Assembly (NCBI GenBank): GCA_019057475.1
Contig: DXJO01000010.1
Location: 293,460 to 357,459, forward strand
Reading direction: 5' to 3'
Length of the DNA stretch: 64,000 nucleotides
Source: Candidatus Thorarchaeota archaeon
GTDB taxonomy: Archaea > Asgardarchaeota > Thorarchaeia > Thorarchaeales > Thorarchaeaceae
Shown piece after piece: positions 15,946 through 18,460 of the stretch (position 1 is its first letter; each line of letters opens with the position of its first letter). A program made the translations under genes and the position numbers. The notes under the pieces were generated by a model. It made no database searches, was not told where the DNA came from, and worked only from the letters and a program-made list of their open reading frames with translations.

Positions 15946-16144
15946 TATGGTTTCACCGGCCTTCTAGGCCGCATTTCCGGTTAAATAGTGTGCCCTCTGG
16001 ATGACTCAGATTGAGGGACTGCACCCAATAAAGGTAAAAAAGGCAACACTCACACCACATAGTGACTCAGATGCTAAAATCACTGTAGTTGTTAGACCAA
16101 CTTAGTATCTGAACATCAAATCTTCAGATAAATGGTGACCAATC

Positions 16145-18460
16145 TTGACGGCCCCTCGCATACTCTTTGAGATTCCCGATGAGCTGAGTACTAGTGCCAT
16201 TGCCGTGGGCGATGTAACCAACTCAGGACTTTCAGAACTCTGTACGGGTGGCCGTAACGGGGTTCTGAAGCTGTATAGTGCCAGCAATAAGACCGAAGTA
16301 CAGTTCTTGGCGCAGCAGGACCTACAGGGCAGCATTCTCTCGATTCGCATTGCTGATGCCAATAATGACGGTCTGATGGAAGTCATTGTTGGACGCAGTG
16401 TGAGTGCCGGTGAGATGCCGGGTGAAACCGGTACGCTTCAGGTGTTTAGGTACGCTCCAAGTGGCCAGCTAGAACTCCTTGCAGAGCATCCGGTGGGGAG
16501 CTTCGTCACAACAATCAGTGTCACTGATGTCACAGGGGATAACAAGAACGAAATTATGGTTGGAGGCAGCGATTCTACACTTCGAGTCCTCAAGATGGAT
16601 ACTCAGAATAACTTGACGGAATACATTCATCATCAACTAGATGACATGCCTATCGCCATCGGCACTTGCGATGTCATTGGCGATGAGATCGAGGAGATAG
16701 TTACCGGTAACCGTGACAAAACGCTGCGTGTGTTCAAGGTTAGGGAAGACGCGCTGGAAGAGATAGAGGTCCTAGAACTGCCTAGTCCAGTTATTTCAGT
16801 CGCGGCAGGTGATATCCTCGGCGATAGGAAAATGGAGCTTGGGGTAGTTACTCACGATGGCTCTATCAGGATTTACCGCAACGAGGAGAGCAAGCTTGAG
16901 CTCTTCACGAAGTTGGAGAACATCAATGCCCTATCCGTCCGAATAGCCGAGTTGAACGCCGATCATATGGACGAGGTTGTGATTGCCACCTCTGACTTCA
17001 AGATTCTATTCTACAGTCTTTACATGGCTGAGCTCAAACAGCTCGCCGTTATCGATATTGGTGCTAAGATTCTCTCTATCAGTGTTGGTGACGCTGGCGG
17101 TGATGATAGACGAGAAGTGTTGGTAGGGGTTTCTGAAAAGCCTCTCAAGGTTATTGAAGGGTTGTACCAGATAATCCCCAGTTTCGAGATATCTCAGGAT
17201 TCTGAGGACAGTACTCGCCTGCGCGGCAAGGTTACTGTTGCAAACATCACGGACCAGCCAGTGATGGGGATCACCGGGAAGATATACCACTTCCCGAAGG
17301 ACAATATGGAAGTCAATCCACAGCAACTCAAGTTCGACCTAGGGCCGGGCGAAACCAAGGCCATAGATATTGAACTAATGCCAAAAGCAGAAGGAACAAT
17401 TATTGTTCGTCCGATCGTGCTCATGTGGACCGACGACGGAGGTCAAGTGCGTCAGGTCACCACGCCGGAAACCGCGATACTTGTAGAGAAAGACCAGGTT
17501 GCCTCAGCTCCTGCTGAAGTCGCTCCCGTCTCAATGCCCGCCACTACGGTGGAGGCACCTACGATATACGAGGAGCCGTCCCCATTCATACCTCCCTCCG
17601 GCACAGGCTTTGGTGAGGTTTCAGTCTCCGAAACCGCTCCCGTCGAAGCTGCCACTGAATCGGAAATGACCGCACGCGACCAAGCTCAGTTGAAAGCGGC
17701 GGAAGACCTCTTGGACAAACTATTCGGAGAGGACTCAGGATTATCAGAGTTGGACGACGTATCCAAGCTAATGGAAGAGGCGGAGCAGGTTACAACAGAA
17801 CCTTCTGCAACAGTCACGGCTATTGCTGTTGAGAGCGCCATGGTGTTAGAGATCCGCGCCAGAGAGCATAAGTCTCCAAGACCCGGTGCAGCCTCGGATG
17901 CGTATAGCTACTTGTTCAAGGTAATGGTAACCGGAGAAGGAGCAGTCGGTAAGACGGCGCTTGTTACAAGATACACTACGGGCCAGTTCCAAAAGGACTA
18001 CAAAACTACGATTGGGAGTCAGTTTGCCGTCAAGCTCGCACACATCTCACCGCCAGAATCTGAGTTCGCAGTTGGGATCAAACTTCAAGCTTGGGATGTT
18101 GCAGGACAAGCTCGTTTCAAGGCTGTTCGGAAGATGTACTACAGCGGAGCGGCGGGACTGATACTGGTGTTCGACGTAACTAGAAGAAGGTCCTTCGTAG
18201 AGCTCCAAAAATGGGTGGAGGAAGCGGACGAATCAGTTGGTCAGAGAATTCCCATAATCTGCATCGGCAACAAGATTGACCTCCCAGACCGTGCGATACC
18301 GGCAGATGAGGCAAAGAAGTGGGCTGAGGACCAGGGTTTCGTTTACATGGAGAGCAGCGCAAAAACGGGTTCGGGGGTATCAGACATGTTCATGGTGATT
18401 GCTGAGCTTATGTGGCGAGAAACCCGGGCGCAGTCCAACGATAATCAGACGCAGTTCTAG
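16145..18460 (+). CDS. FG-GAP/VCBS-like repeat protein fused to a C-terminal Rab/Ras-like small GTPase domain
   Basis: N-terminal repeats (ISVTDVTGDNKNEIMVGGSDSTLRVLK etc.), Pro/Thr-rich linker, then GEGAVGKT (17933-17956), TTIGSQF, WDVAGQARF, GNKIDL, ESSAKTG. TTG start. Confidence 0.85.
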   Translation: MTAPRILFEIPDELSTSAIAVGDVTNSGLSELCTGGRNGVLKLYSASNKTEVQFLAQQDLQGSILSIRIADANNDGLMEVIVGRSVSAGEMPGETGTLQVFRYAPSGQLELLAEHPVGSFVTTISVTDVTGDNKNEIMVGGSDSTLRVLKMDTQNNLTEYIHHQLDDMPIAIGTCDVIGDEIEEIVTGNRDKTLRVFKVREDALEEIEVLELPSPVISVAAGDILGDRKMELGVVTHDGSIRIYRNEESKLELFTKLENINALSVRIAELNADHMDEVVIATSDFKILFYSLYMAELKQLAVIDIGAKILSISVGDAGGDDRREVLVGVSEKPLKVIEGLYQIIPSFEISQDSEDSTRLRGKVTVANITDQPVMGITGKIYHFPKDNMEVNPQQLKFDLGPGETKAIDIELMPKAEGTIIVRPIVLMWTDDGGQVRQVTTPETAILVEKDQVASAPAEVAPVSMPATTVEAPTIYEEPSPFIPPSGTGFGEVSVSETAPVEAATESEMTARDQAQLKAAEDLLDKLFGEDSGLSELDDVSKLMEEAEQVTTEPSATVTAIAVESAMVLEIRAREHKSPRPGAASDAYSYLFKVMVTGEGAVGKTALVTRYTTGQFQKDYKTTIGSQFAVKLAHISPPESEFAVGIKLQAWDVAGQARFKAVRKMYYSGAAGLILVFDVTRRRSFVELQKWVEEADESVGQRIPIICIGNKIDLPDRAIPADEAKKWAEDQGFVYMESSAKTGSGVSDMFMVIAELMWRETRAQSNDNQTQF

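Follow-up and report, generated by a model that had tools for sequence, protein, structure and literature searches.

Asgard archaea encode Rab-like GTPases in large sets. Roco proteins and LRRK2 combine a Ras-like GTPase with a propeller in one chain; in them COR (often with a kinase) comes after Roc, and a WD40 at the C-terminus makes up the propeller. Thor-Rab (PDB 7EZB, KXH73347.1), a paralogue of the GTPase considered here, is a proven GTPase with a Rab-like rate, and Asgard Rabs in general lack a C-terminal Cys, prenylation machinery not having been found (PMC10933270). In the BBSome, BBS1, BBS2, BBS7, and BBS9 are propeller proteins with an Ig-like GAE domain, BBS1 being without platform and coiled coil, and blades 1 and 7 of BBS1 form the site at which its propeller receives ARL6-GTP (PMC7018513). 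An archaeal small GTPase that drives vesicle formation and membrane budding has been described as ArvA/OapA of Haloferax (PMC10927574).

The window, by which we mean the whole stretch of 64,000 nucleotides that was analyzed, holds a gene whose product joins a propeller, an Ig-like sandwich, and a linker to a Rab-like GTPase (Table 1). A Pfam scan gave no match to a COR domain in this protein, and a partial literature search found no publication on the architecture. Multidomain Rab-like GTPases of Asgard archaea are already known; what is new is the propeller-sandwich-Rab variant fixed in Thorarchaeia. As a preliminary description had stated, the gene is one unbroken ORF of 771 codons. It is bounded by an in-frame TGA (16136-16138), after which the TTG at 16145 is the first of the usual starts (ATG/GTG/TTG), and a 96% identical relative (L043) has ATG at the same position. 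The last 4 nt of the gene are shared with the 3' end of an iorB-like gene that converges on it (18457-18460; iorB-like stop at 18457-18459). The C-terminus reads ...RAQSNDNQTQF and, also as first described, has no terminal Cys; the protein has Cys only at residues 33, 175, and 706.

Table 1. Features of the fusion gene, in window coordinates (residue numbers in parentheses).
Feature	Position	Strand	Remarks
Whole gene, propeller - Ig-like sandwich - linker - Rab-like GTPase	16145..18460	+	771 aa; single frame in 35 genomes
GGTGA, ribosome-binding-like site	16134..16138	+	6 nt before TTG start; last three bases are the in-frame TGA; read from the sequence
Seven-bladed beta-propeller (6-341)	16160..17167	+	AlphaFold2 pLDDT ~90; Pfam matches; loop motifs
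Ig-like beta-sandwich, "ear-like" (343-449)	17171..17491	+	AlphaFold2 strands; sub-threshold ASH / Transglut_C / fn3_6
Disordered linker (450-588)	17492..17908	+	pLDDT <50 from residue 457; lowest conservation in the protein
Linker motif 1, GTGF (486-489)	17600..17611	+	Kept in most homologues
Linker motif 2, LKAAEDLLDKLFGE (516-529), predicted helix	17690..17731	+	LxxAExLLDxLFGE or close variants in all homologues
Linker motif 3, ESAMVLEIRAREHKSPRPG (563-581)	17831..17887	+	Just before GTPase; all homologues, small changes
Rab-like GTPase domain (589-758)	17909..18418	+	Pfam Ras; best PDB match Thorarchaeota Rab 7EZB, 1.8e-45
G1 P-loop, GEGAVGKT (597-604)	17933..17956	+	Invariant in 11-sequence alignment; GPGAVGKT in distant homologue L099
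G2 / switch I, TTIGSQF (621-627)	18005..18025	+	Invariant in 11-sequence alignment
G3, WDVAGQ (650-655), catalytic-type Gln655	18092..18109	+	Invariant in 11-sequence alignment
G4, NKID (709-712)	18269..18280	+	N, K, D invariant in 11-sequence alignment
G5, SSAK (737-740)	18353..18364	+	Conserved; SSAL in homologue L055, as in crystallized Thor-Rab

AlphaFold2, given residues 1-451 and 12 sequences, returned a confident model (pLDDT 88.7, pTM 0.84) of a propeller and an Ig-like sandwich, which disposes of the possibility that the N-terminal part does not fold as a repeat platform. The FG-GAP/VCBS-like repeats of the preliminary description, put there at five or more, are borne out as repeats by Pfam (FG-GAP_3, 8e-17), but their number is seven, counted by our own reading of the strand list of the model and of motif spacing: seven blades of four strands each, with an N-terminal strand (6-10) closing blade 7. 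Loop motifs of the form DxxxDxxxE, or close variants, are found at residues 23, 71, 128, 176, 223, 269, and 316, and only in blade 2 is there a near-canonical calcium loop of the DxDxDG type (DANNDG, 71-76). The other Pfam matches of this part are Beta-prop_BBS7 (3e-16; 60.0 bits against a cut-off of 27, for a model that is not fully specific), BBS2_Mid (8e-12), and Itfg2 (1.4e-7; profile PF15907, 31.5 bits against a cut-off of 27); all four are above their cut-offs. The beta-sandwich-like segment seen earlier is likewise present in the model, with about ten strands from residue 343 to ~447-449, and its modeled fold is Ig-like. The best Pfam resemblances of the sandwich, namely ASH (2.4e-5 at best), Transglut_C, and fn3_6, do not reach the curated cut-offs when the window protein is scanned, and they change from one member to another.

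Searched against the PDB with Foldseek, the model has BBS2 (2.9e-18), BBS9 (2.9e-16), BBS1 (3.9e-14), and BBS7 (5.7e-14) as its top families, followed by integrin alpha6 (7.5e-14) and ITFG2 (7.8e-13). Of the two folds first suggested, propeller or integrin-alpha-like, the propeller thus stands, but integrin is not the top match: BBSome subunits lead structurally, and by sequence the propellers of BBS7 and ITFG2 come closest, ITFG2 giving the propeller profile its best hit in the PDB (1.5e-5). Because the BBS alignments span 480-531 columns as compared to ~350 for ITFG2 (superposed at about 4.0 Å), they probably reach past the propeller, and the large rmsd of the matches suggests that the relative placement of the domains differs from that in BBS proteins. 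Identity in the structural matches is low, at 10-16%, and for BBS proteins it is 10-13%; the resemblance to BBS proteins and ITFG2 is weak and partly generic. Like BBS1, BBS2, BBS7, and BBS9, the window protein has an N-terminal propeller and then an Ig-like sandwich, and in part it is like BBS1 in particular, which works with a small GTPase bound to its propeller (PMC7018513). Unlike BBSome subunits it has no dimerization helix (there is none between strands 334-337 and 343-350 of the model) and no recognizable GAE sequence in its sandwich, no GAE model being among the Pfam matches; in place of the platform and coiled coil that follow the sandwich in BBS2, BBS7, and BBS9 it has the linker and the GTPase. 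That GTPase is covalently attached and Rab-like, whereas the one that recruits the BBSome is Arf-like. ITFG2, a KICSTOR component, differs in having neither an Ig-like domain nor a GTPase.

In the window protein, hydropathy and inspection revealed neither a signal-peptide-like nor a transmembrane stretch (maximum 19-residue hydropathy 1.35; N-terminus MTAPRILFEIPDEL), on which basis an integrin-like surface adhesin was rejected, and the propeller looks cytosolic. The BBS7 and BBS2 Pfam models also match Asgard FG-GAP proteins of extracellular (secreted or membrane-bound) look (L113, L116, and L119); these models are thus not specific to trafficking propellers, and assignment to the BBS family by Pfam alone is weakened accordingly. 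By analogy, the fusion protein would work like a BBS protein rather than be a member of that family.

The BBS7 model is matched in 141 of the 228 Asgard genomes, by propellers that stand alone (340-380 aa) or carry other C-terminal parts, and in none of 14 control genomes. The former include L040:889-1914 (-), a stand-alone propeller of 342 aa encoded on contig C53 of the window's own genome; most relatives have a counterpart of it, and it is a possible partner of the fused protein. The latter include Asgard proteins of 500-1000 aa (L066, L070, L103, L106-L112, and similar), many of which end in at least one "YSRSxPRGW" module that may be a winged helix (HTH_45, only E=0.3), and in L106 and L112 the N-terminal part is long and coiled-looking. 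In the f11 propeller protein L085, neither Pfam nor the PDB supported reading the C-terminal part as a longin domain. A profile of the sandwich located the domain in the fusion gene in 41 of the 47 genomes of the window's family, and gave weak matches to one other Thorarchaeia protein and to two proteins of f11, where the match lies behind a long region, toward the C-terminus. Proteins that are unrelated to the fusion but have a relative of the sandwich are L199 (-, 543 aa ORF), L200 (+, 523 aa ORF), and L201 (+, 727 aa ORF), so the domain seems mobile in Asgard archaea.

The GTPase half is matched by Pfam Ras over residues 592-755 (E=6.9e-46, model positions 1-159 of 162), and G1 to G5 follow in order within a domain of ~165 aa, as in the Ras superfamily. 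All five G boxes and the catalytic-type Gln reported at the outset were located, and their conservation was read from an alignment of 11 homologues spanning several genera. By Pfam the class is Ras (156 bits) rather than Arf (43 bits), with Gtr1_RagA at E=0.17, and by our own reading IGSQF, KLQAWDVAGQA, RFKAVRK, YYSGAAG, and LVFDVT resemble, without equaling, the eukaryotic RabF1-RabF5 motifs. A terminal Cys for geranylgeranylation is absent from the window protein and from every homologue. It had been hinted that the repeat domain supplies localization for want of a prenyl Cys; since the missing Cys is general in Asgard Rabs (PMC10933270), it is no argument by itself, and no special substitute for a lipid anchor need be invoked. 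We infer that the propeller may serve in self-scaffolding or localization. Several homologues, although not the window protein, end in Lys-rich tails (e.g., EAKKKGM), which could favor acidic membrane surfaces.

In a tree of 79 GTPase domains, the fused domains form a single clade (SH-aLRT 99), which is sister (SH-aLRT 92) to a stand-alone Rab of the window's own genome (L002), and a Thorarchaeia-specific group (SH-aLRT 90) takes in this clade, L002, and Thor-Rab 7EZB; the tree is a quick one with only two eukaryotic Rabs and no bootstraps, and is firm for the fused clade alone. Thor-Rab and other stand-alone Thorarchaeia Rabs share with the fused domain the DYK-TIGS-FAVK switch I, the DVTRRRxF strand, and the missing C-terminal Cys. 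They differ in being proteins of 180-200 aa, and the interswitch loop of the window GTPase (residues 632-645; 18038-18079) is longer than that of Thor-Rab, with SPP in most fused homologues. These comparisons indicate a single origin of the GTPase, within a Rab expansion that is specific to Thorarchaeia and in which 7EZB would be a cousin, and the simplest account of the tree is one fusion event that preceded the diversification of the Thorarchaeia sampled.

Among proteins from outside the family, those with the closest GTPase domains (47-51% identity) are 500-626 aa long. Their length had made them candidates for the same architecture, which they do not share: they have an N-terminal Rab, a Pro-rich tail, and a zinc ribbon, without a propeller. 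Proteins of this kind in other Asgard families (L169-L187, 400-626 aa; e.g., L175:325-1884 -), with a PPVPEP-rich or Pro-rich tail and the zinc ribbon at the C-terminus, apparently represent a widespread and distinct architecture. Roadblock/LC7 precedes a Rab-like GTPase in L156:1462-2502 (-) of genome G113 (347 aa; Robl_LC7 just at cut-off), and a region with a weak, sub-threshold GCV_H match does so in L166:1459-2472 (-; 338 aa). Other multidomain Asgard Rabs are thus like the window protein in carrying a Rab-like domain in a longer chain, but differ in having it after a roadblock domain or at the N-terminus, and none has a propeller.

Between the two halves lies a linker whose conservation is 0.44, as compared to 0.67-0.76 elsewhere in the protein. 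It had been called Pro/Thr-rich, which holds to a moderate degree (27% P+S+T) but not strongly (9% P), and it is acidic (19% D+E). The three conserved motifs within it, the third with the consensus ESxxVxEIRxRxxKxPRPG, are candidates for docking of a partner or of the protein's own domains. In a full-length model built from the 11-sequence alignment there is a weak helix at 510-527, over motif 2, the amphipathicity of which was non-significant against shuffles (fraction 0.12). The same model gave residues 457-679 no confidence and did not resolve the GTPase half, which reflects the small alignment of 11 sequences, as the domain has been crystallized in close relatives; docking of the GTPase on the propeller was sought in this model, and the GTPase half was too poorly modeled to judge contacts.

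The domain order, the folds, the intact nucleotide-binding motifs, the cytosolic character, the conservation, and the single origin emerge from the computation itself. As to function, we give an even chance to a soluble cytosolic adaptor or scaffold whose engagement with membrane or partner is switched by its own tethered Rab-like GTPase. Under such a scheme the propeller and Ig-like ear would make up a constant platform for binding proteins, comparable to that of coat-adaptor subunits, those of the BBSome type included, and the GTPase would cycle between GDP and GTP on a flexible tether of ~140 residues. In its GTP state it would engage a partner, most likely one on the inside of the cell membrane, and thereby carry the platform there along with anything bound to it, and hydrolysis, probably GAP-assisted, would release the protein; the short conserved motifs of the tether could serve as docking sites for partners or for other domains of the same chain and so tune the cycle. 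An intrinsic GTP-switch adaptor is the most economical account because of the intact G boxes, the active paralogue (PMC10933270), the cytosolic two-domain platform, and the motif-bearing tether. We count for it the retention of the G boxes, including Gln655, over 11 homologues, the confident propeller and sandwich model with BBSome subunits as its leading matches, the BBS7, BBS2, and ITFG2 Pfam scores, the lack of a transmembrane-like segment, the three motifs kept in a variable linker, the dN/dS of 0.03-0.18 in every segment, and the precedents of ARL6 on BBS1 (PMC7018513) and of the Haloferax GTPase (PMC10927574); we count against it the low BBS identity, the unspecific BBS7 and BBS2 models, a GTPase that is Rab-like and not Arf-like, and conserved neighbors (an ABC transporter, an indolepyruvate oxidoreductase, and a DHH protein) that point to no trafficking function.

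Alternatively, one could envision a switch regulated in cis, with the propeller or the linker motifs acting on the protein's own GTPase as exchange factor, activator, or inhibitor, so that the platform would be a regulator and not a scaffold for cargo or partners. The two domains have been kept joined across 13 genera, with conserved motifs right before the GTPase, and propellers can touch small GTPases, as ARL6 on BBS1 illustrates (PMC7018513); however, no RCC1-like or other known exchange-factor propeller is among the Pfam matches, and we consider such regulation unlikely. It is also improbable that a generic FG-GAP repeat protein was joined once to a GTPase, its likeness to BBS proteins and ITFG2 reflecting a common propeller fold and its function being unrelated to trafficking or membrane scaffolding. 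FG-GAP_3 is indeed among the best matches, the BBS7 model extends to the extracellular-looking proteins mentioned above, and more than 1000 PDB chains match the propeller and sandwich model at E<=0.001, but the five best of these are all BBSome chains, and six bacterial FG-GAP proteins, which FG-GAP models do match, had no BBS or ITFG2 match at the thresholds used. A nutrient-signaling scaffold working like ITFG2 of KICSTOR, a tether for regulators of Rag GTPases, would fit the sequence match to ITFG2, its superposition, its Pfam model above cut-off, and the ABC transporter that adjoins the fusion gene in 18/18 loci examined. Such a role is nonetheless very unlikely, as the GTPase is Rab-like and not Rag-like, ITFG2 itself has no Ig-like domain or GTPase, and the transporter genes may be mere neighbors.

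Those neighbors, the names of which are our own reading of the translations, follow one order at 18/18 loci, as far as each extends: substrate-binding protein (SBP) and permease (+), ABC ATPase (-), fusion (+), iorB and iorA (-), and DHH gene (+). In genus g4, this locus holds a second, divergent small GTPase of 251 aa (L097:2603-3355 +), placed between iorA and the DHH gene. With the N-terminal part as query, strong matches (E<1e-80) were obtained in 41 of the 47 genomes of the window's family, in all 13 genera (228 Asgard genomes searched), and with the GTPase as query the fusion was found in one frame, at 757-863 aa, in 35 genomes; the ORFs that were retrieved contain both halves directly, and named relatives are nearly all Candidatus Thorarchaeota. 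In the rest of the family the gene is cut by a contig end (e.g., G221) or the assemblies are incomplete and fragmented. The architecture that was to be looked for in Asgard proteomes is thus present in all 13 Thorarchaeia genera, and no propeller-Rab fusion was seen outside Thorarchaeia among the ORFs examined (about 225 Asgard genomes). Against three congeners, dN/dS was 0.03-0.06 in the GTPase, 0.06-0.10 in the propeller, 0.04-0.13 in the sandwich, and 0.13-0.18 in the linker, so every segment, the linker included, is under purifying selection. That two separate genes were joined through misassembly or a miscalled stop, as had been raised beforehand, has next to no probability and a chimera is rejected, given one unbroken frame in many independent assemblies (including the single-contig chromosomes G186 and G215), the identical gene order, and purifying selection to either side of the junction as well as within the linker. 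Judged from the genomes compared, the fusion is real, ancient, and fixed throughout Thorarchaeia, and the initial reading of a Rab-like GTPase fused to a repeat platform is supported with refinements: a propeller that looks cytosolic, matches to the BBSome and ITFG2, and a Cys absence that is general.

It is doubtful that the propeller-ear platform shares ancestry with BBSome subunits, as a one-chain prokaryotic unit of GTPase plus coat adaptor; if it did, one hallmark of the membrane coats of eukaryotes, namely that a propeller adaptor is coupled to a small GTPase, would be older than eukaryotes themselves. This class-wide conserved fusion names a physical partner for one Asgard Rab-like GTPase, a propeller-plus-ear platform of a type that coats and tethers of eukaryotes employ. 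In a relative of eukaryotes, a GTPase is thereby physically joined to a scaffold that resembles a coat adaptor, and the link between them lies within a single protein that is open to direct expression and in vitro testing.
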